Source of the DNA: an uncultured Flavobacteriaceae bacterium
Lineage (GTDB): Bacteria; Bacteroidota; Bacteroidia; Flavobacteriales; Flavobacteriaceae
Length of the DNA: 64,000 nucleotides
Reading direction: 5' to 3'
Assembly: GCA_947500385.1 (NCBI GenBank)
Contig: CANMSA010000016.1
Location: 1 to 64,000 of the forward strand
Shown: positions 5,025 through 60,522 of the stretch, in pieces
How the letters are laid out: each line of letters starts with the position of its first letter
How positions within the stretch are numbered: position 1 is the stretch's first letter
Made by a program: the position numbers and the translations under genes
Notes under the pieces: model-generated
What the model saw: only the letters and a program-made list of their open reading frames with translations
Told to the model about the DNA's origin: nothing
Databases searched by the model: none

Positions 5025-5031
5025 AATAATT

Positions 5032-6749: not shown

Positions 6750-6766
6750 ATCTTTTACTTTTTAAT

Positions 6767-19973: not shown

Positions 19974-19989
19974 GCTAATTTGAATAGAA

Positions 19990-41214: not shown

Positions 41215-41530
41215 GAAAGCGCAAAAAAAGACAAAATATAGTATGAAACTGTCTTTTTTTGACTCAACAGTACCGGATTGCGCCACAACATGATTGATTT
41301 TCACCTCAACATTACCTATACAGCGCTGTATTTTAACACTATTTTAGAGCTTGTTGAGAGTTTTACTTTTTTTCCTAAACAATTCTGTCGATTCCTTAAT
41401 TAAAAGGGGGTTTGAATGCCATAATGATAAAAACCTCTCTCTTTTTTTAAGGGTGTATATTTTTTGTAGTGGTAAATTTTATGGTATCCCTAGTTTTTGA
41501 ACATAAGTTTAACCGTTCAAAAAATGCTCT
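41215..41530. other. Intergenic region before the glucan operon
   Basis: It contains the terminator of the regulator gene at its left end. The rest is AT-rich and should hold the promoter of the catabolic operon. TATATTTTTTG near 41455 and TAGTTTTTG near 41492 resemble but do not match the -7 consensus, so no promoter is called. Confidence 0.5.
41223..41260 (+). terminator. Terminator after the regulator gene
   Basis: AAAAAAAGACA (41223-41233) pairs with TGTCTTTTTTT (41250-41260) around a 16-base loop, giving a stem that ends in a T-run. It lies 9 bp after the stop and separates the regulator from the enzymes. Confidence 0.7.
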
Positions 41531-44500
41531 ATGAATTCAATCCAAAACAAACTACTCAAACTTACATTCTTATTATGTACTTCAGTATTCTTTGCCCAAA
41601 CGGACAAGGTTGCCGTTGTCAAGAATGAGAACGGAACACATTTGGTCGTGAACGGGGAACCCTTCATGATCAATGGTATGAACTGGGACTACATCCCCAT
41701 TGGCACCAACACGGTCAACGCCAATTTCTGGAAGAAATCCGATGACATCATCAAGGCGGGTTTGGATACCGAAATGTCGCTTCTAAAAAACATGAATGTC
41801 AATGTAATACGTCAATACACCGGCGTTCCCGCAAGATGGATCAAATACATTTACGAGAACTACGGTATTTATACGATGCTGAACGATTCTTTTGGACGGT
41901 ACGGACTTACCTTGGATGGGGTATGGACGCCCGTTACCGATTACTCGGACCCACGTACGCAAGAATACTTACTATCGGAAGTAAAGGCCTTGGTAAACGA
42001 ATACCAAAATACACCGGGTCTTTTATTGTACCTACTAGGAAACGAAAACAACTATGGTCTCTTCTGGGCAGGAGCTGAAACGGAGGATTTCCCGGATGGC
42101 GAAGAGAAAATCAATGCCGTAGGGGAACTACGAGGAAGGCCCATGTACCGATTAATGAACGAAGCCTCTAAAATGATCAAAGCTATGGATGCTTCCCATC
42201 CCGTGGCCATTTGTAACGGGGATGTCTTGTTCATTGACATCGTCGCGGAAGAGTGTAAAGACGTGGACATCTATGGCACCAACACCTATCGGGGTGTTTC
42301 CTTCGGGGACATGTTCCAAGTGGTCAAGGAAAAGTTGGACAAACCGATTATGTTCACCGAGTTTGGTGCGGATGCCTTTAACGCGGTCAAAAACCAAGAA
42401 GATCAAAAAATGCAAGCCTATTACATGGTCAATAACTGGAAAGAGATCTACCAAAATGCAGCGGGCTTGGGAAAAGCGGAAAATTCTTTGGGAGGATTTA
42501 CCTTTCAATTTTCAGACGGTTGGTGGAAAGCAGGTTTTGATGATCGAAAAGACGCAGACTCACATCAGACAGAGGCGACCTGGAACGGTGGTGGGTATAC
42601 CCTTGATATCGCGTACGAGGGAGCCAACAATATGAATGAGGAATGGTTCGGTATTTGCGCCAAGGGGGCTACCGATCCTCGGGGGCTTTACGAACTATAT
42701 CCGCGAGCGGCGTACTACGCCTTAAAAGAAGCACACCAGTTAAACCCCTATGCCGAAGGGGTTAACCCAGACTTTGTCTCCAACCATTTTAACAACATCG
42801 AATTGATGGACGCCGTGTTAAAGGCCCGAGGGGATAAGGCAGCTTTGATCGGTGAGGCAAGTAGTAAAATTAGACTCAGCAACCTGCAAGCAAAATTTAC
42901 CACCTTTAGCACTGGGGGAACGCTATTAACGACCCCTGACGATGCTGACCCGGAAGAGGTAACATACCCTAGGGAGTTGGGTTTTGATCATATGCAATCC
43001 TATTTCGTAGGGGTACAAGGCGAACCTGCTTCCAATATGAAGGCAGAAGTGAACTTCAACATTTTAGGGAATGTAGCCGCGAACCCGATTGATGAAGTAT
43101 TCTATGAAAATAGAGGGCGGCCCGTAGCGGTGAACTCCGACGAAGGGGATGTAATCCTAAACGATTTTAATAGAGTACAAGTGTACAACGCTTCTTTCGA
43201 ATGGAACGCCAAGAACTTTGATGTTCGAGGGTTCTACAGAACCGGGCATTATCACTGGGGGTATGAAGGGGATTTTTTCGGACTATACCCGGAAGCAAAC
43301 TATGGCCCCAACTTGGATATTTACAACGGTGAAATTTCTGGTATCGAAGTAGATGGAAAAGGTCCCTTAAAGGGATTAAAAGCCGCCTTTGGCCCGCAAT
43401 TATGGTGGGGCGCCAACCCGGCCGTTCTTTTAAAATACCGAAAGAAAATAGGGCATTATGAAGTGACAGGTATTTTTCATGAAGACATCGATAATTTTGG
43501 AACCATCGTTTCCTCGCTGGCCGTTCCCAATCCGAGAACCAGAAGAGCAACCCTACAAGTAGAACGGGAACTTGGAAATTTTGAGTTCACCTTTGGTGGT
43601 ATTTGGGGAGGGCAACCTTTAAATGGAAGAGAATTCCAATTTACAGAAGGAGAATCCGGAAATTACACCGTTTTCACAGATGAAGTAAATACAAAAGACA
43701 ACTGGGGAGGAAAGGCGAAAATAATGTTCTCAAAAGGTGGATTTAACTGGTATGCGCAGGGAGCGGCCATGGGACTGGTCGCCAATGGGGGTGCCGATTA
43801 TACCCGAACCTTTACCGGGTGGAAGTTAAAAGACAGCGGAAGCGGCAACCAAACCAACTTCTTGACCGGTTTTACCTTTAATGTAGGCAACATACAAATA
43901 GCGCCGAACTTCTTATGGCAAAAACCCATTGTAGGACCTATGCCCAATGATGTTCAAGGTCCGGGAAGACTACGAAACATTCTTGCCGATCCCTTTGTGG
44001 TCAGAGGCAATAGGGAAACAGTAGCAGGTGAATTACTTCTTACTTTTGATCCTACTCCCGGTACTTGGATGTACGAATGGGACAATGATCGATCCGAAGA
44101 TGCAAAACTGGCCGCCAGTGTAGGTTTCGTATTTCGCCACCACCCCACCGCCCAAGATGCCGCTATCGGGTTTTTAGGAACTCGTGCCCTATTCGCGTTT
44201 CCAAATTCTGCACCTGCGCAAGATTTGTGGGAAACACACGCCCGTATCGTTTCCAAAGTGAATTCAGATTTGGGAATCATCTCCAATCTATACTTTGGGA
44301 ATGCGCAAGCCAGAGGTAGTGATGATCGTTTGATCGAACGTTTTGGGGGTGATATTCGCATGTTATACAAGAATATAAAGCTACAGCACGCCTTTAAGAT
44401 AAACGATTGGGGACCTTTTGATTACCATCGTGATTTTAACCTCACCTACCCCGTGCAATTAATGTTAGACCTTTCTACAACCATCGGCAAACCAGATTGG

Positions 44501-44686
44501 TTTATTCTACCAAGTACCCAGATAGGAATTAGGGGCACATGGCGATCCTTAAACGAGTTCTCCCCGAGATACCTGCCGAATGCAACTACGGGGTTCTCGA
44601 CAGAACCGAATATCAGTCCGGTCGGGTTTAGTGATGGGTCAGAGTGGGAAATTAGAACATACATTCATATCAACATAGGCAAATAA
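41531..44686 (+). CDS. Clan GH-A glycoside hydrolase fused to an outer-membrane beta-barrel
   Basis: The 1051-residue protein has a signal peptide (LLKLTFLLCTSVFFAQ). An N-terminal (beta/alpha)8-type glycosidase (about residues 25-440) carries a likely acid/base Glu172 in LLGNENNYG and a likely nucleophile Glu277 in MFTEFGADAF. This recalls the GH2 catalytic barrel (NGEPFMINGMNWDYIP start). From about residue 455 to the end, aromatic amphipathic strands with tight turns continue (YFVGVQGEP, then WWGANPAVLLKYRKK, then WEIRTYIHINI). They look like a porin-type beta-barrel. The enzyme would therefore be anchored in, or act at, an outer-membrane pore. The GH family is uncertain. It is the first gene of the locus, 11 bp before a binding lipoprotein gene. 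Confidence 0.8.
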   Translation: MNSIQNKLLKLTFLLCTSVFFAQTDKVAVVKNENGTHLVVNGEPFMINGMNWDYIPIGTNTVNANFWKKSDDIIKAGLDTEMSLLKNMNVNVIRQYTGVPARWIKYIYENYGIYTMLNDSFGRYGLTLDGVWTPVTDYSDPRTQEYLLSEVKALVNEYQNTPGLLLYLLGNENNYGLFWAGAETEDFPDGEEKINAVGELRGRPMYRLMNEASKMIKAMDASHPVAICNGDVLFIDIVAEECKDVDIYGTNTYRGVSFGDMFQVVKEKLDKPIMFTEFGADAFNAVKNQEDQKMQAYYMVNNWKEIYQNAAGLGKAENSLGGFTFQFSDGWWKAGFDDRKDADSHQTEATWNGGGYTLDIAYEGANNMNEEWFGICAKGATDPRGLYELYPRAAYYALKEAHQLNPYAEGVNPDFVSNHFNNIELMDAVLKARGDKAALIGEASSKIRLSNLQAKFTTFSTGGTLLTTPDDADPEEVTYPRELGFDHMQSYFVGVQGEPASNMKAEVNFNILGNVAANPIDEVFYENRGRPVAVNSDEGDVILNDFNRVQVYNASFEWNAKNFDVRGFYRTGHYHWGYEGDFFGLYPEANYGPNLDIYNGEISGIEVDGKGPLKGLKAAFGPQLWWGANPAVLLKYRKKIGHYEVTGIFHEDIDNFGTIVSSLAVPNPRTRRATLQVERELGNFEFTFGGIWGGQPLNGREFQFTEGESGNYTVFTDEVNTKDNWGGKAKIMFSKGGFNWYAQGAAMGLVANGGADYTRTFTGWKLKDSGSGNQTNFLTGFTFNVGNIQIAPNFLWQKPIVGPMPNDVQGPGRLRNILADPFVVRGNRETVAGELLLTFDPTPGTWMYEWDNDRSEDAKLAASVGFVFRHHPTAQDAAIGFLGTRALFAFPNSAPAQDLWETHARIVSKVNSDLGIISNLYFGNAQARGSDDRLIERFGGDIRMLYKNIKLQHAFKINDWGPFDYHRDFNLTYPVQLMLDLSTTIGKPDWFILPSTQIGIRGTWRSLNEFSPRYLPNATTGFSTEPNISPVGFSDGSEWEIRTYIHINIGK

Positions 44687-44697
44687 AAAATAGCAAG

Positions 44698-46131
44698 ATG
44701 AAAAACATACACTATACAAACACAAGGTTTTCACTTTTGTTGGCATTCATTTTTAGCGTGTTTGCAAGTTGTGAAAGGGATGTTTCGGATGATGTGGCCT
44801 TTGCCACCTTTCCGGCAACAGGAGATATTTTTACCGATACCCCTGTAGGCTTGGGAACTAATTTCTATTTCCCTTACGGGCCAAGTCCTGAGAACCCTCC
44901 CGGGTCAAAACCAACAGCTTGGTCGGTTGACGACGAAGTGAGTTTTATAGGAGAAGCTTCGATGCGCTTTGATGTGCCAAATGCTGATGACCCCGAAGGA
45001 AACTTTGCGGGCGCCATCTTTAGAATTGACGGGGAAGGTTCAGGTCGCGACCTCAGCGGTTTTGACGCGTTGACCTTTTATGCAAAAGCAAGTCAGAATG
45101 TGAATATCGGGGAGTTCGGTTTTGGGGAGGACTTCGGAGAAAACAAATATGTGGTCACCAGACAAAATGTGGCGTTGACCACCAATTGGGTAAAGTATAC
45201 CATTCCAATTCCCGATCCATCAAAACTGGTACGGGAGCGGGGAATGTTCCGATACTCTGCCGGCGCTGTTGATGGCTTGGGCTTTACCTTTTGGGTAGAT
45301 GAACTGCGATTCGAAAAATTGGGAACCATTGCCCAACCACAACCCGCCATCTTTAATGGAAACGATTTGGTGCAACAAACCTTTAATGGCTCAAATATCC
45401 TTATCAACGGGCTTACCCAGACGTACAATTTAGAATCCGGTATCAATCAAACCGTTGTTGCAGCACCTTCCTACTTTACGTTCAGCTCTAGCGATCCCGA
45501 TGTGGCCCAGGTGAGCGAACTTGGCGCAGTATCTGTCGTAGGGCCAGGTACCTCCGAAATCACGGCTATTTTGGCCGGAGTAAGGGCAAAGGGCTCCTTA
45601 GCGGTCACCTCGACCGGTACCATTACCTCTGCTCCGGTACCCACTGCTCCGGCGGCAGAAGTTATTTCGCTCTTTAGCAACCAATACACCAATGTACCGG
45701 TAGATACGTTCAGGGCAGATTTTGGGAGCACCGGCTTCAGTGAGATTACCGTGAACGGTGATGATTTCAAGTTCTATTCAAGTTTGGATTTTGTGGGAAT
45801 CCAATTCCAAAACCCGACCATCGATGCGACCGGAAAAAGTTCCTTGTTCCTAGACATTTATACCAATGACGTGGCCTCGGGCAATTTTCAAATACAGGTT
45901 AGGGACCGCGGCGCCAATGGCCAATTGGACACCGATATTTTTACCGGAAATCCCATAGAGGACGACGCAGAAGTGCGGTTGGATTTAACGCCCGCCGAAC
46001 TTCCGGTAGGGCAATGGATAACGGTCGAGATTCCCCTCAACGGGAATTTGGCCGCGCAAAAAAACAATCTGGCCCAAATCGTTTTTGTCGGCGGGATCGA
46101 TTTCTTATTAGACAATGTATACATCCGATAA
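44698..46131 (+). CDS. Multidomain glycan-binding lipoprotein
   Basis: The 477-residue protein has a lipobox at Cys25 (SVFASC). The first domain (about 40-210) is a jelly-roll, carbohydrate-binding-like module (LSGFDALTFYAKA, then FTFWVDELRFEK). A Big_2-like immunoglobulin domain follows (about 225-305, SSDPDVAQVSELGAVSVVGPG). The C-terminal module (about 315-477) starts PAAEVISLFSNQYTNVPVDTF and ends DFLLDNVYIR. This module is a diverged relative of the tandem repeats in the protein at 46987-49935. It is probably a surface glycan-binding protein that takes the place of SusD-like partners. There is no catalytic motif. It lies 11 bp after the GH-barrel fusion and 24 bp before the GH16 gene. 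Confidence 0.85.
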   Translation: MKNIHYTNTRFSLLLAFIFSVFASCERDVSDDVAFATFPATGDIFTDTPVGLGTNFYFPYGPSPENPPGSKPTAWSVDDEVSFIGEASMRFDVPNADDPEGNFAGAIFRIDGEGSGRDLSGFDALTFYAKASQNVNIGEFGFGEDFGENKYVVTRQNVALTTNWVKYTIPIPDPSKLVRERGMFRYSAGAVDGLGFTFWVDELRFEKLGTIAQPQPAIFNGNDLVQQTFNGSNILINGLTQTYNLESGINQTVVAAPSYFTFSSSDPDVAQVSELGAVSVVGPGTSEITAILAGVRAKGSLAVTSTGTITSAPVPTAPAAEVISLFSNQYTNVPVDTFRADFGSTGFSEITVNGDDFKFYSSLDFVGIQFQNPTIDATGKSSLFLDIYTNDVASGNFQIQVRDRGANGQLDTDIFTGNPIEDDAEVRLDLTPAELPVGQWITVEIPLNGNLAAQKNNLAQIVFVGGIDFLLDNVYIR

Positions 46132-46155
46132 AGAAGGAAAGCAAAAAAGAAAAAA

Positions 46156-46971
46156 ATGAAAAATAGAACGAAAAAGATAAGTACCTTACTACTGCCTTTA
46201 CTGCTATTGGTCGGTTGTAATACAGATGAAACACAGACCGTCGTAAACTTCACCGAATTGGTCATGCAAGACGAATTTGATACCGATGGTGCGCCCAACA
46301 GCACTTTATGGAAGTCCGAGATCGGTACAGGTGTAAATGGATGGGGCAATAATGAACTGCAATACTATACCGATCGTAGTGAGAATGTAAAAGTAGAAAA
46401 CGGCGTTTTGTTGATTACGGCCAACGAAGAATCTTTCGAAGGATCCTCGTATACCTCGGCAAGACTAATCACAGACGGGTTGTTCGAACAGCAATACGGG
46501 CGGTTTGAAGCACGTATTCGACTGCCGTATGGACAAGGTGTTTGGCCGGCATTTTGGATGCTGGGTGCCTATGACGATGGTACAATTTGGCCAAACATCG
46601 GCGAAATAGATATTATGGAGTTTCGGGGGCAAGAGCCCACTACCATCTTAGGCAGTGTACACGGCCCTGGCTATTCGGGTGGGGCAGCTATTTCAAAAAG
46701 CTTCACCCTGCAAAACGATCGCTTTGATACCGGCTTCCATATTTTCGGAATCGAATGGGGGCCCGCCTACGTCAACTTTTATGTAGACGATATCTTATAC
46801 AATCAAATCACTCCTGAAGATGTTACCGGCGAATGGGTTTTTGACCATCCCTTTTACATTTTGATGAATGTAGCCGTGGGCGGTTCTTTTGTCGGCGCCC
46901 CAAATGAAGAAACAAATTTTCCCCAAAGTATGTTGGTAGACTACGTAAGGGTATACAAAAATGCAAACTAA
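46156..46971 (+). CDS. GH16 endo-beta-1,3-glucanase (laminarinase) lipoprotein
   Basis: The 271-residue protein has a lipobox at Cys21 (LLLVGC), so it should sit on the outer membrane. The GH16 catalytic motif ExDxxE is present as Glu150-Ile-Asp152-Ile-Met-Glu155 in NIGEIDIMEF, with the methionine typical of laminarinase-type (GH16_3) members. WPAFWMLG, FHIFGIEWGP and VDYVRVYK are further family marks. It would cut beta-1,3-glucan chains (laminarin) outside the cell into oligosaccharides for uptake. It sits between the two binding lipoprotein genes. A lichenan-type mixed-linkage activity is possible as well. Confidence 0.95.
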   Translation: MKNRTKKISTLLLPLLLLVGCNTDETQTVVNFTELVMQDEFDTDGAPNSTLWKSEIGTGVNGWGNNELQYYTDRSENVKVENGVLLITANEESFEGSSYTSARLITDGLFEQQYGRFEARIRLPYGQGVWPAFWMLGAYDDGTIWPNIGEIDIMEFRGQEPTTILGSVHGPGYSGGAAISKSFTLQNDRFDTGFHIFGIEWGPAYVNFYVDDILYNQITPEDVTGEWVFDHPFYILMNVAVGGSFVGAPNEETNFPQSMLVDYVRVYKNAN

Positions 46972-46986
46972 ACTAATACTTAAACT

Positions 46987-49935
46987 ATGAAAGAGTTACT
47001 CAATTCAGCAAAACGCTTTTCAGTTCTTTTCCTGGTCTTTGCCTTTCTTGGCTGTACGGATGATGATGATGGCAATCTCCCCCAGGTAGTCTCAGGCTTT
47101 ACCTTTACCCTTAATGCAGATACCGGTACCGTTACCTTTATTAACATATCAGAGGAAGCAAACACCTACGCATGGGATTTTGGGGATGGTACCACTTCTA
47201 CCGAAATCAATCCTATAAAAACATTCCCCTCAGGTACCTATACCGTTTCTTTAACGGCATCGAATGTTGCGGGATCTTCCGAAACATTTGAAGATACGTT
47301 TACCGTCGCTTTAAAAGAGCAGGTAATGCTACCGATTACTTTTGACGGTACCAATGTAGATTATGACGCCACCACCTTCGGAGGAGCTACTTTCGAGGTT
47401 GTCGCGAACCCTGACCTGTCCGGGACCAATGATGTCGCCTCCAATGTAGGGGCCATTACAAATGCAGGCGCCGAATTTGAAGGCGTCTACTTTGACTTAG
47501 GCACCCAAGTTGATTTAGCGACCGATAAGACCATCACGATGAACTTTTGGTCAGATGTGGCGATTGCGGTCTTGGTAAAACTCGAAGAAGGCACTGGTGC
47601 AGATACAGAATTCTCGGTGATGCATGCAGGAACCGGATGGGAAACGTTAGCATTCGATTTTACTTCAGCTGATAAATATTCAAGACTTACCATGTTTGTC
47701 GATGGGCCTGGAACTACAACAGGTACGTTCTACATCGATGATGTTGAACAAAGTACCACCACTGGCGGTGGGGACGACCCCGTACCCCCTACTATGGGAG
47801 CTGCGGCACCTACCCAAGCAGCGGCAGATGTCATTTCCATTTTTAGTGATGCCTTTACAGATGTACCCAATGGCGGCTTTAACAATTATGGCGCCGCGGC
47901 CTTTGAGCAAGTAGACCTGTCGGGAAATGCTGTTCTAAAATATACCTTTGTAGAAGGCGATGGAGGCGGTTTCCAAGTAATCGAGTTGGGCGGTGATCAA
48001 ATCGATGCAGCGGCAGCGGGTATGACCAATTTCCGTTTTGACCTATGGTTCCCGAATGCAGTAGACGATACCTCGTCCTTCCTTATGAAACTGGTTGATA
48101 TTCCTGCAAGCGGTGCTACGGAAGGCCTGATCAATATCGGTATGAGTTCTACTCCTGCAATGGCGCAGGGTATGTGGCTTTCATTTGATATTCCATTTAG
48201 TGAATTGGAAAGCAACGGACTGGGAGCAAAAAGTAATCTTCAGCAAGTAGTCATAGACTTAATGAATGTAGGGGAAGTTTATGTTGACAACATTTATTTC
48301 TACAAGGCCGGTAGCACCGGTGGCCCGGTAGCACCGACAACCGCGGCTCCAACTCCTATGGAAGCGGCGGCAGATGTCATCTCCATTTTTAGCGATGCCT
48401 ATACCAATGTTCCCAATGGAGGCTTCAACAACTACGGGGCGGCGGCCTTTGAACAAGTAGACCTTTCGGGCAATGCGGCTTTAAAATACACTTTTGTAGA
48501 GGGTGATGGAGGAAACTTCCAAGTAATCGAACTGGGAGGCGACCAAATCGATGCAGCGGCAGCGGGTATGACCAATTTCCGTTTTGACGCTTGGTTCCCC
48601 AACGAAGTAGATGCCAACTCAACATTTCTAATGAAAGTCGTAGACATCCCCGCTAGCGGGGCTACCGAAGGGCAAATCAATATTGGCGCGGCATCGAGCC
48701 CGGCAATGGCCCAAGGATCATGGCTATCTTTCGATATTCCATTCACCGAATTAGAGGGGAATGGTCTGGGCGGCAAAAGCAACATACAGCAAGTGGTGAT
48801 CGATCTGTTGACCTCTGGAGAGGTATATCTTGACAATATTTACTTCTACAAGCCCGCAGGAGGTGGCGGGCCCGTAGCCCCCACCATGGCAGCAGCGGCC
48901 CCATCGCAAGCAGCGGCCGACGTTATTTCCATATTCAGTGATGCGTACTCCGATGTTCCAAACGGTGGATTCAACAACTATGGTGCAGCTGCCTTTGAGC
49001 AGGTAGATCTCTCTGGCAACAGTGTACTTAAATATACCTTTGTAGAAGGTGGAGGCGGCAACTTCCAGGTAATCGAATTGGGTGGTGATCAAATAGATGC
49101 CGCCGCGGCGGGCATGACCAACTTCCGCTTTGATCTGTGGTTCCCGAACGCTGTAGACGCCAATTCTACTTTCTTGATGAAGGTAGTAGATATCCCCGCC
49201 GCTGGGGCCACTGAAGGGCAAATCAATATTGGCCCTTCCTCTAACCCGGCGATGTCCCAAGGTGCATGGTTATCTTTTGATATTCCACTTACCGAATTAC
49301 AAAGCAATGGTCTTGGCGGAACGAGCAACATACAACAAGTGGTCATCGATTTGATGACCGCCGGGGAAGTGTATATAGACAATATTTACTTCTATAAGAC
49401 TAGCGGCGGTAGCGGTTCAGCTCCCGATTTCCCCTTCACTTTCGAAGATGCTGGAAACTACTTTGGAGCGTTCGATAATGGCGCTACCGCGGCGAATATT
49501 GACAACCCGCAAACTACAGGAAATACCTCATCTAAAGTACTTGAGTTGAACAAAGTATTGAACTCGGCTTGGTACTCAGGGGTCTTTTTTGACAAATCGT
49601 TGCGCGATGTTAATGCACCCCTTGTACAGACCGATAACGGAACGGTTTTTAAAGTAAAAATGTGGTCTCCAAAAGCCAATATCAATGTGCGTATGAGATT
49701 ACAAGGTGACAATGATGGGGATATAAACACCCCCGTAGATCCCGCTTTTAACGTAGATGTAAACTTGGCGACCGCGAATGAATGGGTTACTTTGACCTTT
49801 GATTTCACAGCACAAGTCGGGGCCAATTCCTTCTCTTACGAAGAGTTTGTGATACAACCTGATTTGGATGAATCGAACATGGTAGATGTTAATCCCGGTT
49901 TAATATTTTACATAGACGACATCACTCAAGAATAA
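46987..49935 (+). CDS. PKD and tandem-repeat glycan-binding lipoprotein
   Basis: The 982-residue protein has a lipobox at Cys23 (FAFLGC) followed by an Asp-rich stretch. A PKD domain (about 36-110) has the signature YAWDFGDGTTS. A jelly-roll module (about 112-258) is followed by three tandem repeats of 182 residues each (about 267-812), each beginning AAADVISIFSDA and ending VYxDNIYFYK. A last jelly-roll module (about 815-982) ends PGLIFYIDDI. No catalytic motif was seen. The repeats resemble carbohydrate-binding modules, so this is probably a long surface glycan-binding protein that gives multivalent grip on laminarin. A terminator follows the gene. Confidence 0.88.
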   Translation: MKELLNSAKRFSVLFLVFAFLGCTDDDDGNLPQVVSGFTFTLNADTGTVTFINISEEANTYAWDFGDGTTSTEINPIKTFPSGTYTVSLTASNVAGSSETFEDTFTVALKEQVMLPITFDGTNVDYDATTFGGATFEVVANPDLSGTNDVASNVGAITNAGAEFEGVYFDLGTQVDLATDKTITMNFWSDVAIAVLVKLEEGTGADTEFSVMHAGTGWETLAFDFTSADKYSRLTMFVDGPGTTTGTFYIDDVEQSTTTGGGDDPVPPTMGAAAPTQAAADVISIFSDAFTDVPNGGFNNYGAAAFEQVDLSGNAVLKYTFVEGDGGGFQVIELGGDQIDAAAAGMTNFRFDLWFPNAVDDTSSFLMKLVDIPASGATEGLINIGMSSTPAMAQGMWLSFDIPFSELESNGLGAKSNLQQVVIDLMNVGEVYVDNIYFYKAGSTGGPVAPTTAAPTPMEAAADVISIFSDAYTNVPNGGFNNYGAAAFEQVDLSGNAALKYTFVEGDGGNFQVIELGGDQIDAAAAGMTNFRFDAWFPNEVDANSTFLMKVVDIPASGATEGQINIGAASSPAMAQGSWLSFDIPFTELEGNGLGGKSNIQQVVIDLLTSGEVYLDNIYFYKPAGGGGPVAPTMAAAAPSQAAADVISIFSDAYSDVPNGGFNNYGAAAFEQVDLSGNSVLKYTFVEGGGGNFQVIELGGDQIDAAAAGMTNFRFDLWFPNAVDANSTFLMKVVDIPAAGATEGQINIGPSSNPAMSQGAWLSFDIPLTELQSNGLGGTSNIQQVVIDLMTAGEVYIDNIYFYKTSGGSGSAPDFPFTFEDAGNYFGAFDNGATAANIDNPQTTGNTSSKVLELNKVLNSAWYSGVFFDKSLRDVNAPLVQTDNGTVFKVKMWSPKANINVRMRLQGDNDGDINTPVDPAFNVDVNLATANEWVTLTFDFTAQVGANSFSYEEFVIQPDLDESNMVDVNPGLIFYIDDITQE
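47785..49422 (+). repeat. Three tandem 546-bp repeats encoding 182-residue modules
   Basis: The anchor GCGGC(A/C)GA(T/C)G occurs at 47821, 48367 and 48913, exactly 546 bp apart. The encoded modules are very similar over most of their length, with most nucleotide changes synonymous by eye. Linkers between modules are rich in Gly, Pro, Ala and Ser. The pattern implies recent duplication within the gene. Confidence 0.95.
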
Positions 49936-49994: not shown

Positions 49995-50031
49995 ACCCCC
50001 GCCAAAGTTGTTGGTTTCCGAAAACATACGA

Positions 50032-53000
50032 ATGCCACATAAAAATAACCATATCGGAGGGGTGAAACTGGTTCAAGACCCCAAGGAGGTTTCTGGAAAA
50101 CTAGTGCAGTTCGAAAACGAACACTATTACAAGATTTCCAATTACGATGCCATGCGCCCATTCTTCATGAGTATTGTAAGCAATTCCAATCACTGGCTGT
50201 TCATTGCAAGTAACGGCGGTTTGACAGCAGGGAGACAGAATTCCGAATCTGCCCTATTCCCCTATTATACCGATGATAAAATCACCGAATCCGCTCATAT
50301 CACGGGAAGTAAGACGCTTTTGCAGGTACATCTATTCGACAACACCTACTTATGGGAACCATTTTCCGACCGCTATAGTGGAATCTATAAAATACAGCGC
50401 AACTTATATAAAAACATCTTAGGCAACAAAGTAGTGTTCGAAGAGGTGAATGAGGATCTGGGATTAACGTATCGGTACCAATGGAATTCAAGTATTCGCT
50501 TCGGGTTTGTTAAAAAGGGGACCCTGATAAACAACAGATCGAACGAGGTGGAAGTGTCGGTCCTGGATGGTATTCAAAACATTATGCCCTATGGCGTGAA
50601 TACCAGTCTTCAAAATGCCAGCAGTAATTTGATAGATGCGTACAAGAAAAATGAGCTTGAGGTAGCCACCGCACTCGGAATTTATTCACTAAGTGCCATT
50701 ATCGTTGATCGGGCCGAACCTAGCGAGGCGCTCAAAGCCACCACCGTCTGGTCGGCAGGTATCGAGGCATCTCAATACCTGATTTCTTCTAGGCAGATAG
50801 CAGCATTCAGGAAAGGACAAGGAGTTACTACCGAAGTGGATATACGAGCAGAAAAAGGCGCTTACTTTATGTATGCCGATATCACCCTTACGATAAACGA
50901 TAAAAAACAATGGATTACGGTTGCTGAAGTAAATCAGTCCAGTACTAAGATAAGTGAACTAACCGAACTGTTGAAAGATAAGGTCAAATGTCTGGCACTG
51001 GTTGAAAAAGATATTGAAAACGGTTCCAGTGCATTGCTTGAACTAAATGGGGCCGCTGACGCGTTACAGCTTACGGCAGATACCCTTCGCAACGCCAGGC
51101 ATTTTTCAAATACCTTGTTCAATATCATGCGAGGCGGCATTTTTGACCACCACTATGAAATCGAAAAGGCAGACTTTATTGACTACTTAAAAAAGGCCAA
51201 CAAAGAGTTATCACAACTGCAAAAAGAGCGGTTAGAGGAGTTCCCCATGAGATTTGATGTCGCGGTGCTTCGAAAAGCGGCACAGGCCAGCGCCAATTCC
51301 GATTTTAAGCGTTTGGCGCTAGAATACATGCCATTAAAGTTTAGTAGAAGACATGGAGATCCCAGTAGACCATGGAACAAGTTTTCTATCAACACAACGG
51401 ATGATAAGGGAAATAAAGTATTGGATTATGAGGGGAACTGGCGCGATATTTTTCAAAACTGGGAAGCATTGGCACATTCGTATCCGGTTTTTATTGATAG
51501 TATGATCCATAAATTTCTAAATGCAACCACCTTTGATGGATATAATCCGTATCGTGTTACCAAAGACGGATTTGATTGGGAAGCGATCGAACCGGATGAT
51601 CCCTGGTCGTACATTGGTTATTGGGGAGATCATCAAATTATTTACCTTCTAAAATTCCTAGAGTTCAGCGAGAACCACTTCCCGGATACGCTTGCATCAT
51701 ACTTCAACGAAGACATCTTTGTGTATGCCAATGTCCCTTATAAAATAAAAAGGTATGAGGCCATTTTGAAAGACCCAAAAGATACCATAGTCTTCGATGA
51801 CACCTTGGATGAAGAAATCCGAAAAGAACGCCTTAAAATAGGGGCGGATGCGGCCTTGCTTAAAAGTCAAGACCGGGAAATTTACAGGGTAAACCTGTTA
51901 GAAAAATTATTGGCGCCGGTATTGGCGAAAATTTCCAACTTCATACCCGAAGGGGGCATTTGGATGAATACCCAACGACCAGAATGGAATGATGCCAACA
52001 ATGCCTTGGTAGGTAACGGAGTTTCAATGGTGACCCTGTATTATCTAAGAAGATTTCTAAGCTTTTTTGAAAAACTGGTAGAGCATCTCCCCGACAACAG
52101 TTTCTACATTTCTCAAGAATTGATCACTTTTTTCAACAACATCCGAGGTACCCTTAATCAAAATTTATCCTTGCTTTCTTCGTCTATTTCCGATACCGAT
52201 CGTAAAACTATTATGGACGGACTAGGGATTGCCGGAAGCGACTATCGCGCCACAATTTACAAGCAAGGCTTCGCCAATAAAAAAGCATCGGTTACCAAAG
52301 ACGATTTGTTACAATTTACCGAAGTAGCTTTAAAATTCTTGGAACACAGCATCGATGCCAACCAACGAACGGATAAATTGTTTCATTCTTACAACCTAAT
52401 GACCGTCACCAATGAAAATGAAGTATCAATAAGCCACCTTTCGGAAATGTTGGAAGGTCAAGTAGCGGTCCTCAGTGCCGGATACATTAATAGTAAAATG
52501 TCATTGGAGGTGTTAGACGCCCTTAAGGCAAGTACCCTCTTCAGATCTGATCAATACAGCTACCTCCTCTACCCCAACAAAGAACTGCCGAGGTTTGTAA
52601 ACAAGAATACGATTCGGCCCCAAAGTATTAAAGATTCGCAATTGGTCCGTACACTTTTGAAGAACGGCAATATTTCAGTAATCGAACAGGATGTTCAGGG
52701 CAATTATCATTTCAACGGCTCCTTTAATAACGCAGAGAGTCTTTCAAAAGCATTATCTGCACTACCCAATGAAACCTATGGGCCACTGGTACGAAAAGAA
52801 AGACAGTCATTTCTAAACGCTTTCGAGGCAGTTTTTGACCATAAGTCCTTTACCGGTAGATCGGGTACTTTCTTTGGATATGAGGGCTTAGGTTCGATTT
52901 ATTGGCACATGGTCTCCAAACTACTGTTAAGCGTGCAAGAAACCTGTTTGACGGCCTTTGCTACCGGAGAGCGTAAAGAAACCATCGGTCGCCTCTTAGA

Positions 53001-53493
53001 GCATTATTATGAGATAAACGAAGGAATCGGCGTGCATAAATCCCCTGAGCTGTACGGTGCCTTTCCGATAGACCCTTATTCACATACCCCTGCCGGAAAA
53101 GGAGCGCAACAACCTGGTATGACGGGTCAGGTGAAGGAAGACATTCTTAGCAGGTTCGGGGAACTGGGGGTATTCGTAAAAAAAGGATGTTTGGTTTTTA
53201 ATCCTTGTTTGCTTCGCAAAGCCGAATTCTTAAAAAACCCGCAGACCTTTCAATATACCAACGTGGCAGGTGACATTAAAACGATTACCATAGCCGCAGG
53301 ATCCCTTTGTTTTACCTACTGTCAAGTACCTGTCGTGTACCAATTAAACAAGGAAGAAGGTGTATCTGTATTGTACGAAAACCAATCTCCTGTTTCTCTA
53401 GAAGGCTTGGAACTGGACCTGGAAACAAGTCAAAAGATTTTTAGACGCTCTGGTGAAATCGAACAAATAACGGTATCCATAGCGGCACCCTAA
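50032..53493 (+). CDS. GH149-type beta-1,3-oligoglucan phosphorylase
   Basis: The 1153-residue protein has no signal peptide and should be cytoplasmic. Its size and layout match GH149 within the GH94/GH149/GH161 phosphorylase clan. An N-terminal beta-sandwich is followed by an alpha/alpha barrel, with the catalytic general acid likely Asp654 in RPEWNDANNALVGNG. This equals the WND motif of cellobiose phosphorylases. It would split beta-1,3-gluco-oligosaccharides with phosphate into glucose 1-phosphate. The ATG at 50032 is preferred over an in-frame TTG 24 bp upstream, which is close to the terminator. It is followed after 10 bp by the GH17 lipoprotein gene. GH161 is the alternative, but its members are usually shorter. 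Confidence 0.82.
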   Translation: MPHKNNHIGGVKLVQDPKEVSGKLVQFENEHYYKISNYDAMRPFFMSIVSNSNHWLFIASNGGLTAGRQNSESALFPYYTDDKITESAHITGSKTLLQVHLFDNTYLWEPFSDRYSGIYKIQRNLYKNILGNKVVFEEVNEDLGLTYRYQWNSSIRFGFVKKGTLINNRSNEVEVSVLDGIQNIMPYGVNTSLQNASSNLIDAYKKNELEVATALGIYSLSAIIVDRAEPSEALKATTVWSAGIEASQYLISSRQIAAFRKGQGVTTEVDIRAEKGAYFMYADITLTINDKKQWITVAEVNQSSTKISELTELLKDKVKCLALVEKDIENGSSALLELNGAADALQLTADTLRNARHFSNTLFNIMRGGIFDHHYEIEKADFIDYLKKANKELSQLQKERLEEFPMRFDVAVLRKAAQASANSDFKRLALEYMPLKFSRRHGDPSRPWNKFSINTTDDKGNKVLDYEGNWRDIFQNWEALAHSYPVFIDSMIHKFLNATTFDGYNPYRVTKDGFDWEAIEPDDPWSYIGYWGDHQIIYLLKFLEFSENHFPDTLASYFNEDIFVYANVPYKIKRYEAILKDPKDTIVFDDTLDEEIRKERLKIGADAALLKSQDREIYRVNLLEKLLAPVLAKISNFIPEGGIWMNTQRPEWNDANNALVGNGVSMVTLYYLRRFLSFFEKLVEHLPDNSFYISQELITFFNNIRGTLNQNLSLLSSSISDTDRKTIMDGLGIAGSDYRATIYKQGFANKKASVTKDDLLQFTEVALKFLEHSIDANQRTDKLFHSYNLMTVTNENEVSISHLSEMLEGQVAVLSAGYINSKMSLEVLDALKASTLFRSDQYSYLLYPNKELPRFVNKNTIRPQSIKDSQLVRTLLKNGNISVIEQDVQGNYHFNGSFNNAESLSKALSALPNETYGPLVRKERQSFLNAFEAVFDHKSFTGRSGTFFGYEGLGSIYWHMVSKLLLSVQETCLTAFATGERKETIGRLLEHYYEINEGIGVHKSPELYGAFPIDPYSHTPAGKGAQQPGMTGQVKEDILSRFGELGVFVKKGCLVFNPCLLRKAEFLKNPQTFQYTNVAGDIKTITIAAGSLCFTYCQVPVVYQLNKEEGVSVLYENQSPVSLEGLELDLETSQKIFRRSGEIEQITVSIAAP

Positions 53494-53503
53494 AAACACA
53501 AAC

Positions 53504-54778
53504 ATGAAAAATTTAGCAAGATTAGGAGGTGTTCTCCTTTTAACGGTATTCACCTTCTCATGTAAAAACGATTCAAAAACCGAAAACAAGACAACTACGT
53601 TGAAAGAGGTAAAAACGATAAGCGCAAAGGATATTTTGGGAAACCCCGATTACCTGGCCATTTCCTATGGCGGGTATCGCAAAACGTCACGGGACATGCA
53701 ACCCACAGTCGATGAGATCAAGGAGGATATGAAACTTCTATCGGCGATGGGCGTAGGTATCTTGCGTACCTACAATGTGCAAATGGCACATGCATCAAAC
53801 GTTCTCAAGGCAATTACGGCACTGAAACAGGAAAATCCCGAATTTGAAATGTACGTGATGCTCGGCGCGTGGATCGATTGTAAAAATGCATGGACCGATA
53901 AGGTGCCAGACCACGATGTTGAAAGTGAACAAAATGCCGAGGAAATACGGCGTGCAGTCACCCTTGCAAACCAGTACCCGGATATTGTAAAGATCATCGC
54001 CGTAGGAAATGAGGCCATGGTAAAATGGGCCACCAGTTATTACGTGCAACCTACGACCATCTTAAAGTGGGTGGATCACCTACAGGCCTTGAAAAAAGAA
54101 GGTGCCTTGGCAAAAGACCTATGGATCACAAGTTCCGATAATTTTGCCTCTTGGGGTGGTGGAGATCCAGAATATCATGTACCAGATTTGAACAAGCTCA
54201 TCGGCGCCGTTGATTATCTCTCGGTGCATACCTACCCCATGCACGACACCCATTACAATCCGGCATTTTGGGGTACGCCCGCAATAGAGAAAAACAAAAC
54301 AGATCTTGAAAAAATAGATGCGGCCATGGCCAGGGCCAAGACCTATGCAATGAACCAATACGATAGTGTAAAAAGCTATATGGAAGGTTTGGGAATACAG
54401 AAACCCATCCATATTGGCGAAACAGGCTGGGCCACTATTTCAAACCGTCATTATGGCCCTGAAGGCTCCAAGGCGACCGATGAGTTCAAAGAAGCTCTTT
54501 ATTACCAACACATGCGCGATTGGACCGCGGAAGTAGGAATCGCCTGCTTCTATTTTGAGGGCTTCGACGAACAATGGAAAGACGCTGCCAACCCCCTGGG
54601 ATCGGAAAATCATTTTGGTTTGATCAACCTTAAAAGCGAAGCGAAGTATGCACTTTGGAACTTGGTAGATGACGGAGTCTTTGAAGGCCTTACCAGAGAC
54701 GGAAAACCGATAACCAAAACCTTCAACGGCAGCCTAGAGGAACTCATGAAAACGGTACTTGTACCACCTTCGAATTAG
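53504..54778 (+). CDS. GH17 beta-1,3-glucanase lipoprotein
   Basis: The 424-residue protein has a lipobox at Cys20 (FTFSC). The GH17 barrel shows acid/base Glu170 in IAVGNEAMVKW and nucleophile Glu306 in IHIGETGWAT, with the chain start YLAISYGGYR. GH17 enzymes hydrolyse beta-1,3-glucans, and related lipoproteins in marine Flavobacteriia act on laminarin. The 136-residue spacing between the catalytic glutamates is larger than in the two other GH17 domains of this locus (90), so it belongs to a different subgroup. It is expected on the cell surface or in the periplasm. Confidence 0.92.
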   Translation: MKNLARLGGVLLLTVFTFSCKNDSKTENKTTTLKEVKTISAKDILGNPDYLAISYGGYRKTSRDMQPTVDEIKEDMKLLSAMGVGILRTYNVQMAHASNVLKAITALKQENPEFEMYVMLGAWIDCKNAWTDKVPDHDVESEQNAEEIRRAVTLANQYPDIVKIIAVGNEAMVKWATSYYVQPTTILKWVDHLQALKKEGALAKDLWITSSDNFASWGGGDPEYHVPDLNKLIGAVDYLSVHTYPMHDTHYNPAFWGTPAIEKNKTDLEKIDAAMARAKTYAMNQYDSVKSYMEGLGIQKPIHIGETGWATISNRHYGPEGSKATDEFKEALYYQHMRDWTAEVGIACFYFEGFDEQWKDAANPLGSENHFGLINLKSEAKYALWNLVDDGVFEGLTRDGKPITKTFNGSLEELMKTVLVPPSN

Positions 54779-54848: not shown

Positions 54849-57221
54849 ATGTCAAATCTACAAACAGCTGCAAAAGACAACGTTCCTATGGGACAAAAGA
54901 TTGCCTTCGGTATCGGGATGCTTGCCAACCAAATGTTTCCTGCAGCCCTTGGAATTTTCATGGTGGTTTTGGTACAGGACTTAGGTTTTCCCGGCTGGAT
55001 GTGGGGGGTAATTTACTTTTTTCCAAGACTTTTTGATTCGTTTACCGATCCCATTATGGGATACATCTCGGATAATACAAAATCCAAATGGGGAAGACGA
55101 CGACCGTATGTCATTTTAGGGGGAATCATCTTAGGGGTCTCGTTTATTATGATGTGGCAACTATATAAGGGAGCCGGAGTGGATTACAATTTCACATACT
55201 TTATGATTTGGTCATTTATATTTTACTTGGGGATTACCATCTTTAGTGTGCCCTATGTAGCTATGGGCTATGAAATGAGCAATGATTTTCATGAACGTAC
55301 CAGTATTATGGCAACGGCCCAATGGATAGGGCAATGGGCTTGGGTGATTGCCCCATGGTTTTGGATTATCATGTATGATCCAGAGTGGTTTGAATCTGCA
55401 GAAGTCGCGACCAGATCTCTTGCCGTTTGGGTCGGGATTATTTTTGCACTCTGCGCAATTGTTCCTGGTGTATTTATCAAAAGTAAATCAACGGTCGACG
55501 AAGCGTATTCCCCCTTAAAGTTAAAATATATAGGAAATAGCCTAAAGGAAATAGGCTATGGTTTTGCAAGTGCCTTCACAATGAAATCATTCAGACAACT
55601 ATGCATCGCCACATTCCTAGTGTACAATGCGTTCATGACCATTGCTTCTTTTTCATTCTTTATAATCGTCTATCATCTTTTTGATGGTGACGCCGGTGCT
55701 GCAGGAATTTGGCCTACTCTTTTCGGATGCTTGGGAGCATTGGGAACTACTTTTTTTGTGATTCCGATCGTAACAAAAATGTCGAAAAAAATGGGCAAAA
55801 AAAAGGCATTTCTCGTATCACAGGGCATCTCTATCATAGGGTACATTATGCTCTGGTTTCTCTTTATTCCCGGCAAGCCATATATGTTCATCATTGCCTT
55901 GCCCTTTTTCTCCTTTGGAATTGGGAGCCTCTTTGTACTGATGATGTCTATGACCGCCGACGTAATTGATTTGGACGAATTGAATACCGGCCTTAGAAGG
56001 GAAGGTACCTTCGGAGCTATTTACTGGTTGATGGTAAAATTTGGTTTTGCCATCGCAGGAGGGCTAAGTGGCGTCATTATGAGCACGGTAGGGTTCGACT
56101 CGGGTGCTCCTGTTCAACCAGATGGTGCTATTGAGGGCTTACGGTTGGCTTTTTCGGGAATCCCTATTATGGGAACGGTCGTTGCAATGATAGTAATGCG
56201 CAATTACGATGTTACCGAACAACGCGCAGGCGAGATACGGGAAGCGCTGGAAAAGAGAAAAGGGCAAAAACCCTCTGGCTATGCCAAAATGAAGTTGCTC
56301 TCCGAAATACACATGAACGACCTATCGGAGCAACAATTAAAAGAAAAATTTCCAGATTTTTTCACCTCAAAGGTCGATTTCACCCCAATGTCCGAAGCGG
56401 CATTGCAAGCCGAATTCTCGACCGTATTTAAAGCGGGAATGCCTGGGCTTTGTTTTAGTGCCTATACATCAGGACAAGAACCAGGAGATACGATTACCGA
56501 GGAGCAAATACGAAAACGGTTGATGGTATTGCAACCATATACACAATGGATTCGAGTTTTCTCCTGTACCAACGGACATGAAAAAATACCGGCCATCGCA
56601 AAAGAAATGGGCTTTAACACCATGGTGGGTGCCTGGTTAAGCAATGAAACAGCTGAAAACGAACTAGAAATCAATGCCCTGATCAAGCTAATGAAAGAAG
56701 GGACGGTAGATATAGCCGCTGTCGGGAACGAAGTACTTTATCGCGATGAATTGAGCGAAGAAATCATAATCGATTACATACAACGGGTCAAGAAAGAAGC
56801 AAATTACATACCAGTGGGATACGTTGACGCCTACTACGAATTCATAAACAGACCGGCCTTGACCGCTGAATGTGACATTATTCTGGCGAACTGTTATCCT
56901 TTTTGGGAGGGCTCCGACATTCGCACTGCAGGCCTGTACTTACAGGAAATGTATCGCAAAACAAGTGATGCTGCCAACGGCAAAAAGGTGATTATTACAG
57001 AAACCGGATGGCCAAGCAAAGGCGATGTTGTGGAAGGCGCGGTACCGTCGAAAGAAAATGTGATGAAATATTATATAAAAATACAACAATGGGCAGCAGC
57101 GGAAAAGGTCGATTTGTTTTACTTCTCCTCTTTCGACGAGTCCTGGAAAATACATTCAGAAGGATGGGCGGGCACCTCTTGGGGACTTTGGGATGCCGAA
57201 GAAAACTTTAAATACGAATAA
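54849..57221 (+). CDS. MFS (GPH-type) sugar transporter fused to a GH17 domain
   Basis: The 790-residue protein joins two proteins. Residues 1 to about 455 form a twelve-helix transporter of the glycoside-pentoside-hexuronide family, with the signature DSFTDPIMGYISDNTKSKWG and RRRPY. A linker with KRKGQKPSGYAKMKLLSE leads to a GH17 domain (about 495-790), with Glu628 in AVGNEVLYRDE and Glu718 in IITETGWPSKG. Both termini of such transporters are normally cytoplasmic, so the GH17 domain would face the cytoplasm at the exit of the channel. The domain is a close relative of the separate GH17 encoded next. The likely role is import of beta-glucan oligosaccharides with immediate cleavage or transglycosylation. 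Confidence 0.93.
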   Translation: MSNLQTAAKDNVPMGQKIAFGIGMLANQMFPAALGIFMVVLVQDLGFPGWMWGVIYFFPRLFDSFTDPIMGYISDNTKSKWGRRRPYVILGGIILGVSFIMMWQLYKGAGVDYNFTYFMIWSFIFYLGITIFSVPYVAMGYEMSNDFHERTSIMATAQWIGQWAWVIAPWFWIIMYDPEWFESAEVATRSLAVWVGIIFALCAIVPGVFIKSKSTVDEAYSPLKLKYIGNSLKEIGYGFASAFTMKSFRQLCIATFLVYNAFMTIASFSFFIIVYHLFDGDAGAAGIWPTLFGCLGALGTTFFVIPIVTKMSKKMGKKKAFLVSQGISIIGYIMLWFLFIPGKPYMFIIALPFFSFGIGSLFVLMMSMTADVIDLDELNTGLRREGTFGAIYWLMVKFGFAIAGGLSGVIMSTVGFDSGAPVQPDGAIEGLRLAFSGIPIMGTVVAMIVMRNYDVTEQRAGEIREALEKRKGQKPSGYAKMKLLSEIHMNDLSEQQLKEKFPDFFTSKVDFTPMSEAALQAEFSTVFKAGMPGLCFSAYTSGQEPGDTITEEQIRKRLMVLQPYTQWIRVFSCTNGHEKIPAIAKEMGFNTMVGAWLSNETAENELEINALIKLMKEGTVDIAAVGNEVLYRDELSEEIIIDYIQRVKKEANYIPVGYVDAYYEFINRPALTAECDIILANCYPFWEGSDIRTAGLYLQEMYRKTSDAANGKKVIITETGWPSKGDVVEGAVPSKENVMKYYIKIQQWAAAEKVDLFYFSSFDESWKIHSEGWAGTSWGLWDAEENFKYE

Positions 57222-57260
57222 TGCTATTTCCCCTTCAGGAATAGTAGAGAACAACATACT

Positions 57261-58169
57261 ATGTCATACCGAAAAGAGCATCATTTTTCACTACCGAACA
57301 CCAACTATAGCAAACATGCCGGAGTTGATTTCAAGGACTATTCCAAGGAGCAATTAGAACAGTTATGGAATGACACGCTTAAGAGCGGCATGCATGGCAT
57401 CTGCTTTAGCATGTATGAAGATGGCCAGGGTCCTGGTGATATCATCACCGAAACGCAGGTGCGCCGAAGAATCGATATATTAAAGCCATATACCAAATGG
57501 GTGCGTTCGTTTTCATGTATAGAAGGGAACGAACACATTCCCAAAGTTGCCAAGGAAAATGGTTTAAAAACGATGGTAGGCGCTTGGCTGGGGCATGATT
57601 TAGCATTAAACGAACAAGAAATCGATGGGCTGATCAAGCTGGGAAAAGAAGGGAATGTAGACATTGCTGCCGTCGGTAACGAAGTAATGTATCGCGGAGA
57701 CCTGACGGAAGAACAGCTATTGGCATACATAAGAAGAGTAAAAGAGGCCTTACCTACTGTCACAGTAGGCTATGTGGATGCCTATTACGAATTCACCCAG
57801 CGGCCAAACATTACCGCGGCCTGCGATGTGGTGCTTTCAAATTGCTATCCTTTCTGGGAAGGTTGCCCCATAGAACATTCCTTGAACCATATGCAGGCTA
57901 TGCATGGGGAAGCCAAAGCGGCGGGAGGTAGGAAAAAAGTAATTATCACCGAAACCGGGTGGCCCAGTGAAGGGGGAAGCTTTAAAGGGTCGTTCGCATC
58001 CCGGGAGAATGCCATGAAATACTTTATCAACACCCAAGTTTGGGGAGCTAAAGAGGCGATTGAAATCTTTTACTTTTCGTCATTCGATGAATCTTGGAAA
58101 ACCGGTGATGAAGGCGACGTCGGAGCTTATTGGGGATTATGGGATAAAGACGAAAACTTAAAATTTTAG
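57261..58169 (+). CDS. Cytoplasmic GH17 family protein
   Basis: The 302-residue protein lacks a signal peptide and consists of a single GH17 barrel, with Glu141 in AVGNEVMYRGD and Glu231 in IITETGWPSEG. It is strikingly similar to the GH17 domain of the preceding transporter fusion, sharing GYVDAYYEF, NCYPFWEG and FYFSSFDESWK. The two therefore arose by duplication, and the fusion probably formed by loss of a stop between transporter and enzyme. It lies 40 bp after the fusion gene and ends the locus before a terminator. It may hydrolyse or transglycosylate imported oligosaccharides alongside the phosphorylase. Confidence 0.92.
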   Translation: MSYRKEHHFSLPNTNYSKHAGVDFKDYSKEQLEQLWNDTLKSGMHGICFSMYEDGQGPGDIITETQVRRRIDILKPYTKWVRSFSCIEGNEHIPKVAKENGLKTMVGAWLGHDLALNEQEIDGLIKLGKEGNVDIAAVGNEVMYRGDLTEEQLLAYIRRVKEALPTVTVGYVDAYYEFTQRPNITAACDVVLSNCYPFWEGCPIEHSLNHMQAMHGEAKAAGGRKKVIITETGWPSEGGSFKGSFASRENAMKYFINTQVWGAKEAIEIFYFSSFDESWKTGDEGDVGAYWGLWDKDENLKF

Positions 58170-59540: not shown

Positions 59541-59590
59541 GTTAAACTGTCATATTTGACCTTAGATTGTCCTATACTACCTTAAACTGT
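59541..59590 (-). promoter_or_regulatory. Three direct repeats with 20-bp period upstream of the Crp/Fnr gene
   Basis: GTTAAACTGT (59541), CTTAGATTGT (59561) and CTTAAACTGT (59581) begin exactly 20 bp apart. Read on the minus strand they are ACAGTTTAA-like, close to the direct repeats bound by LytTR regulators. They lie 52-101 bp before the Crp/Fnr start and partly inside the end of the hydrolase gene. The regulator is unknown. Confidence 0.5.
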
Positions 59591-60500: not shown

Positions 60501-60522
60501 TTTCAAGTATCTATTATTTACG

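Follow-up and report, generated by a model that had tools for sequence, protein, structure and literature searches.

Described relatives and comparison with the locus

FbGH17B (FORMB_24740) is a characterised glycoside hydrolase of family 17 (GH17) that belongs to a fusion with a transporter of the major facilitator superfamily (MFS) in Formosa sp. Hel1_33_131; Unfried et al. 2018 (PMC6246565) called the MFS-GH17 architecture common in marine Flavobacteriia and already proposed a coupling of transport and hydrolysis. The enzyme is active on debranched laminarin and was reported as an exo-beta-1,3-glucosidase (PMC6246565). We analysed a protein of the same architecture, encoded at 54849-57221 of a 64,000-nt stretch of an uncultured Flavobacteriaceae bacterium (GCA_947500385.1, contig CANMSA010000016.1, positions 1 to 64,000), hereafter the window. 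An earlier interpretation made from the letters of the window (the sequence-only reading) had stated that no characterised GH17 example of such a fusion was known, which is wrong, since FbGH17B was characterised biochemically in 2018. The architecture has been known since then; within it, the protein of the window falls into a separate branch, the Tyr type described below. Our search of open-licence literature found no characterised member of the Tyr-type branch of fused GH17s, no papers under four other names of the fusion or on vectorial MFS-GH fusions, and, among the titles listed, none on an exchange of MFS and GH17 halves. The most interesting addition to the known architecture is its mosaic history, in that the two halves appear to have been re-paired repeatedly.

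A further reference is the free MlGH17B of Muricauda lutaonensis, a beta-1,3-glucanosyltransglycosylase 53% identical to the GH17 module of FbGH17B (PMC11005184). According to the same source, Trp191 and Glu192 of MlGH17B are conserved in FbGH17B, which has Met in place of Tyr136; the change of the matching Tyr to Ala in RmBgt17A abolished transfer (Qin et al. 2015, as cited in PMC11005184), and it was left open whether the link to the transporter or the missing Tyr is the reason why FbGH17B was not seen transglycosylating.

The fusion of the window and FbGH17B, which were compared through published descriptions and not by alignment, share an N-terminal MFS, a C-terminal GH17, a laminarin locus and an adjoining gene of GH17A type. 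They differ in that FbGH17B has the Met mentioned above, whereas the window has Tyr631, and in that the FbGH17B cluster has a GH30 gene. MlGH17B resembles the free GH17 of the window, being without a signal peptide and downstream of an MFS gene in its polysaccharide utilization locus (PUL), and, as a single module, is unlike the fused one. As here, GH149, GH16, GH17 and MFS genes are clustered in GH149 PULs of Bacteroidetes (PMC5827456) and in the Muricauda laminarin PUL (PMC13188888), although the latter is described with MFS and GH17B on two distinct genes; many Muricauda laminarin clusters also have a LuxR-type regulator (PMC13188888), comparable with that of the window.

Fusion genes and their occurrence

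The gene at 54849-57221 is a single unbroken frame of 790 aa. Unbroken fused open reading frames (ORFs) amounted to 49 distinct proteins, including that of the window, each with a stop codon in the stretch and no N run, and two of them come from single-contig genomes (G238 and G357). The chance that a sequencing or assembly error joined two genes is therefore negligible, even if some relatives have MFS and GH17 as adjacent separate genes. The sequence-only reading was right in taking the fusion as genuine, and the search that it had proposed, for the same fusion in related genomes, found it: homologues are not always encoded separately.

For the occurrence of the genes we used a family set of 397 genomes (taken as Flavobacteriaceae), considering matches of MFS/GH17 at E <=1e-30 and of GH149 at E <=0.001. 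MFS/GH17 had a match in 137 genomes and GH149 in 138, the two together in 130 (130 of the 145 with either; MFS/GH17 alone in 7, GH149 alone in 8), with a Fisher p of 7e-85 that ignores kinship among genomes. Full-length, stop-free matches to the fusion were present in at least 25 of the 397 family genomes, including that of the window (G048 and G416 counted from the match only), and in at least 12 of 395 phylum genomes, among which G000, the genome of the window, and G180 are also in the family set. These counts are lower bounds, and loci L110, L116 and L123, fragmented in the search, come on top.

Full-length matches with internal stops (11 genomes) were rejected as fusions, as the nine loci that were opened (L008, L065, L066, L068, L072, L073, L075, L084 and L092, with G087 and G302 left out) proved to be two adjacent genes each. 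Likewise, four candidates for larger fusions, with open frames of ~1020-1140 aa (G067 L085, G170 L086, G108 L087 and G057 L089), were separate ORFs; this check covered these four, leaving out G155, G282, G073, G396 and G414 of similar size. Nothing is fused in L085 and L089, where each cluster contains two free GH17 genes plus two MFS genes, one of the ~46-47% type and the other of the 71% type.

Among 33 named loci, 12 were fused and 6 had an MFS gene with an adjacent separate free GH17. Two were left unclassed: L045, in which the MFS gene runs into the contig end and a 730-aa GH30+MFS ORF spans an N run and was discarded as a scaffold artefact, and L056, without an intact MFS ORF. In L056 the MFS match covers ~1330 bases, with a sole ORF of 182 aa and no N, which points either to a disrupted transporter gene or to a fault in the assembly.

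Two types of fused GH17

We produced three sets of sequences, dropping identical ones and excluding the own-genome copies L001-L004: 49 fused proteins, 83 free GH17s and 60 unfused MFS (2 of these 60 rows were later found to be bad). In a quick, unrooted tree of the GH17 sequences a 99% branch has 48 fused domains on one side and all 83 free GH17s on the other; as the tree is unrooted, it does not tell whether the fused or the free state is older. The sequence-only reading had called the free GH17 next to the fusion a paralogue; this account was incomplete, for the tree places it in an old separate lineage and not as a recent copy, and MlGH17B, a free relative of it, has been characterised as a transglycosylase. 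The 49th fused GH17, that of L110, falls among the free ones. L110 (G455, from another family) encodes 820 aa; its MFS is of the same type (72% identity) and is joined to a GH17 of the free type, so that it represents an independent fusion event.

The group of the window comprises 12 of the 48 domains, on a branch supported by 99% in the quick tree and by 99/97 in a careful tree of 47 rows. At the position of MlGH17B Tyr136 this group has Tyr in 11 members and Phe in one, and the other 36 fused domains have Leu (28) or Met (8); the fusion of the window, with Tyr631, is thus not of the Met/Leu type. Free GH17s have Tyr in 78/83 and Leu in 5/83. The pairing of fused and free residue in the 49 fused loci was Leu/Met with Tyr in 29, Tyr with Tyr in 10 (the window included), Leu with Leu in 5 and Phe with Tyr in 1, the remaining 4 having no free GH17 partner in the stretch. 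In alignment A1, the linker of the Tyr-type rows (4 of 13) is ~10 residues longer than that of the Leu/Met-type rows. L116 (855 aa) and L123 (831 aa) have a Leu-type fused GH17 on a different MFS lineage, with 40-42% identity to that of the window.

We also considered a tie between the Tyr type and the loss of GH30 (PF02055), which is present in 39 of the 49 fusion-bearing genomes and, in the set of 47 rows, absent in 6/12 Tyr-type versus 4/35 other genomes (Fisher p 0.01). Independent pairs on the MFS tree gave it no support (5 pairs, median p 1), and we retain it as a lead only.

Conflicting histories of the two halves

Careful trees were built from 47 of the 49 fused rows, L116 and L123 being left out as members of another MFS lineage; in these trees and in the approximately unbiased (AU) tests, the 'Ltype' group also included L110, although its fused GH17 is of the free type and has Tyr. 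The GH17 tree had the Tyr type as one group in 100% of bootstrap trees. On the tree of the 47 MFS halves, instead, 6 changes are required to explain the Tyr type, 5 or more of them forced, and a single change sufficed in 0% of 200 bootstrap trees. By the AU test, a constraint that keeps the Tyr type together lowers the log-likelihood of the MFS data by 379 units (p 7.6e-91). On the GH17 data the cost is 176 units (p 1.9e-6) for a constraint on the MFS group of the window (WIN, L005, L006, L057, L035) and 171 (p 7.4e-62) for one on L059 and L069. The tested groups were named after the trees had been seen. In a wider MFS tree of 107 rows, fused and unfused transporters are interleaved, with 17 changes, at least 12 of which are forced by starred branches; an earlier version of 109 rows, which held two bad L045 rows, gave 16 changes, 13 of them forced.

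The conflict can also be read from raw identities, which are 93% in the MFS and 49% in the GH17 half for L059 and L069, and 89% and 55%, respectively, for the window and L035. Over 46 of the 49 loci (L110, L116 and L123 left out; 1035 pairs), the Spearman correlation of identities was 0.66 within the MFS half and 0.69 within the GH17 half, and 0.04-0.25 across the junction. For whole parts it was 0.14 between MFS and fused GH17, 0.24 between MFS and free GH17, 0.20 between fused and free GH17, 0.00 between lipoprotein GH17 and MFS, 0.48 between lipoprotein and free GH17, and 0.71 between GH149 and free GH17 (15 pairs only). By these figures, each half of the fusion is poorly correlated with the remainder of the locus, and the two halves agree with one another no more closely than a pair of separate genes. 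In a fine scan, identity falls close behind the last helix, at residues 461-490.

The conflicting trees, together with the low correlation across the junction, suggest that the halves were re-paired, repeatedly so among the relatives compared, and that the fusion gene is a mosaic. That the conflict is instead an artefact of hidden paralogy or tree error, without any recombination, we regard as quite improbable: it is true that some trees were quick, with long rows flagged, that the tested groups were picked after seeing the trees and that fourfold sites are mostly saturated, but the 47-row trees are the careful ones, and the identities of L059 and L069 and the drop in correlation at the junction show the conflict without any tree. 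The saturation indicates that the re-pairing is old; a recent transfer is not favoured, with fourfold identities of 28-53% in the MFS and 21-45% in the GH17 half of five discordant pairs. For L069 the nearest relatives, among the nine rows listed, differ for each part (L059 for MFS, 93%; L052 for fused GH17, 77%; L057 for free GH17, 85%) and do not single out the half that moved.

Domains, active site and membrane side

In the fusion protein Pfam recognised MFS_2 at residues 20-457 (E 9.6e-67) and Glyco_hydro_17 at residues 713-790 (E 1.1e-9), and phmmer extended the latter, residues 542-771 matching RmBgt17A (4wtp) with an E of 1.4e-30. The MFS half passed the cut-off of PF13347 (225.8 bits versus 27) and scored 181.2 bits over the full TIGR00792 model of the GPH symporter family, whose curated cut-off is 231.35. 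Both catalytic glutamates pointed out by the sequence-only reading are present, Glu628 in GNEVLYR and Glu718 in TETGWPS, 90 residues apart, and so is the acceptor triad Tyr631, Trp686 and Glu687, located by offset from the acid/base Glu. With positions of MlGH17B mapped by the same offset, and not by an alignment of its sequence, 22 residues named in PMC11005184 were matched in 22/22 cases by the fused domain and in 21/22 by the free GH17 (Ser275 to Asp). For the nucleophile, printed there as Glu233, we assumed position 223, since the remaining offsets to RmBgt17A equal 34. Most of the 22 residues are invariant in the fused and free sets and hence uninformative on type; Tyr136, Pro50, Tyr168 and Ser275 vary.

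An AlphaFold2 model of the fusion was built from 13 sequences, with a mean predicted local distance difference test (pLDDT) of 79 and a predicted template modelling score (pTM) of 0.56. Its first half resembles MFSD2A and MelB (template modelling score by target 0.72-0.83), at 16-20% identity for these top matches; both share with the transporter of the window the 12-helix fold and PF13347 and, to our knowledge, have no enzyme domain. The second half resembles RmBgt17A (4wtr; template modelling score 0.87, 2.3 A, 29% identity), a fungal GH17 beta-1,3-glucanosyltransferase (4wtp/4wtr/4wts) with the same fold and Tyr/Trp/Glu triad. As the pLDDT is below 50 at residues 472-479, the linker between the two halves would seem to be loose.

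RmBgt17A is a secreted single-domain fungal enzyme. The GH17 half of the window is predicted, instead, to be on the cytoplasmic side of the membrane, on account of the twelve helices and of a strong bias of Lys/Arg, which are 32 in the predicted-inside segments versus 3 outside (one sequence, helices taken from the AlphaFold2 model). This, together with the MelB/MFSD2A-like fold, supports the cytoplasmic C terminus assumed by the sequence-only reading.

Proposed function and rival explanations

The vectorial processing proposed by the sequence-only reading may take place here, with laminari-oligosaccharides as the putative substrate, action at the exit of the carrier and transfer chemistry. 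GH16 and the lipoprotein-like GH17 would cut laminarin outside the inner membrane, as family and leader suggest, and the MFS half, in view of its MelB-type fold and its locus, would import short beta-1,3-gluco-oligosaccharides across that membrane. The GH17 half, hanging from the cytoplasmic face by its loose linker in the computed topology, is predicted to be active, with its catalytic and mapped contact residues present, and to transglycosylate as well as hydrolyse, like MlGH17B, because the acceptor-site Tyr, absent from FbGH17B, is present in it. GH149 and the free GH17 would share the same cytoplasmic pool, yielding glucose-1-phosphate and glucose. The covalent link would concentrate GH17 at the transporter exit, and a direct hand-over of the substrate is possible. 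That the fused GH17 is active, cytoplasmic and capable of transfer on imported oligosaccharides has, in our estimate, an about even chance of being correct.

Several points weigh against it. MlGH17B prefers a degree of polymerization (DP) of 5 or more and its activity is very low below DP5, and a MelB-like carrier may pass short sugars only. GH149 phosphorolyses from DP2 upward, so that it does not need chain-lengthening; this weakens a scheme modelled on the MalP/MalQ pair of E. coli, in which transfer feeds phosphorolysis and GH17 would make the substrate of GH149. In 13 of the 33 named loci the MFS gene is intact with no GH17B in the stretch, so the carrier can do without its GH17 domain. 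That halves were exchanged speaks against a finely co-adapted interface for hand-over, and, with a pTM of 0.56, the model does not reliably position the GH17 cleft with respect to the transporter exit.

The fused GH17 could also be a plain exo-hydrolase that releases glucose from oligosaccharides, in which case the Tyr would not be decisive. FbGH17B, the sole characterised fusion that we found, was reported to be an exo-beta-1,3-glucosidase (PMC6246565), and it too has the Trp191 and Glu192 equivalents (PMC11005184). The loss of transfer in the Tyr to Ala variant of RmBgt17A speaks for its being decisive, and the Met of FbGH17B and the Tyr631 of the window belong to separate groups, for which reasons we hold this explanation unlikely, though a serious one. 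Even an active, transfer-capable enzyme might be fused merely for co-production and membrane anchoring, without any coupling of transport and catalysis. The many relatives with unfused MFS and GH17 genes side by side, the exchange of halves between fusions and the predicted looseness of the linker all agree with such a role; but the 99% branch that sets 48 of the 49 fused GH17s apart from the 83 free ones indicates that the fused state is old and lasting in that GH17 lineage, and we consider mere anchoring to be improbable.

Going beyond vectorial processing by an active, transfer-capable GH17, it is conceivable, although we would advance it only tentatively, that MFS-GH17 is a modular platform, in which one laminarin transporter scaffold has been re-paired time and again, at a fixed junction after its last helix, with a Tyr-type GH17, predicted to transglycosylate, with a Leu/Met-type one, predicted to hydrolyse, or with none, the protein of the window being a transporter-bound glucanosyltransferase. 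If so, the chemistry at the exit of the importer would be swapped between species, and a transporter-bound glucanosyltransferase would add an activity of a kind not known so far from transporter fusions. The question raised in PMC11005184, link or Tyr, becomes directly testable on natural fusions with and without the Tyr on a near-identical transporter (L059 and L069). The conflict between halves also bears on the need for co-adaptation in fused transporter-enzymes, which here is seemingly not needed.

Gene cluster and other genes of the window

The genes of the laminarin cluster, from the regulator, which is the first, through the free GH17, are all on one strand (Table 1).

Table 1. Coordinates in the window of the genes of the laminarin cluster and of the parts of the fusion
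Feature	Coordinates	Strand	Evidence
Regulator, 929 aa, Y_Y_Y domain and LuxR-type C terminus	38425..41214	+	GerE 22.6 bits, cut-off 23.5
Protein of 1051 aa, GH2-type TIM barrel	41531..44686	+	PF02836
Lipoprotein-like protein, 477 aa, Big_2 domain	44698..46131	+	leader by eye
GH16, lipoprotein-like leader, putative laminarinase	46156..46971	+	PF00722 E 7.5e-27
PKD protein, 982 aa, repeated blocks (by eye), putative binding protein	46987..49935	+	PKD domain
GH149 beta-1,3-glucan phosphorylase	50008..53493	+	NF058639 1781 bits vs cut-off 1150
GH17, lipoprotein-like leader, just upstream of the fusion	53504..54778	+	PF00332 24.3 bits (E 3e-5), curated cut-off 28.2
Transporter half of the fusion, residues 1-470	54849..56258	+	MFS_2, 12 transmembrane helices
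Linker of the fusion, residues 471-505	56259..56363	+	pLDDT <50 at 472-479
GH17 half of the fusion, residues 506-790	56364..57221	+	Glu628, Tyr631, Trp686, Glu687, Glu718
Free GH17, 302 aa, predicted cytoplasmic	57261..58169	+	Glu141, Tyr144, Trp199, Glu200, Glu231

The free GH17 was described by the sequence-only reading as having the same motifs and the same spacing as the fused one and no signal peptide. The spacing agrees, Glu141 and Glu231 being also 90 residues apart, and the protein begins with MSYRKEHHFSLPN, in which no hydrophobic leader was seen by eye. The gene context given there was incomplete, as it omitted GH149 and a third GH17, the lipoprotein-like one, which occupies the position of MlGH17A/FbGH17A. 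The NF058639 match of GH149 starts at residue 26, with no hydrophobic leader by eye, and the true start may be later than the TTG.

Pfam found no SusC/SusD in the five upstream genes (38425-49935), and no GH30 was found among the cluster genes scanned or, as PF02055, in the genome of the window (G000, 99.86% complete).

Other genes of the window, named by eye, lie on the minus strand. At 1794-15457 there are hybrid genes similar to those of nonribosomal peptide and polyketide synthases (1076 and 2896 aa), separated by two genes, one TauD-like and one racemase-like, and at 18074-21459 three adjacent genes, deoxyhypusine synthase-like, agmatinase-like and arginine decarboxylase-like (polyamine). 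Downstream of the laminarin cluster, at 59577-62142, an esterase-like and a sulfatase-like gene were seen, the latter of which hints at another polysaccharide.

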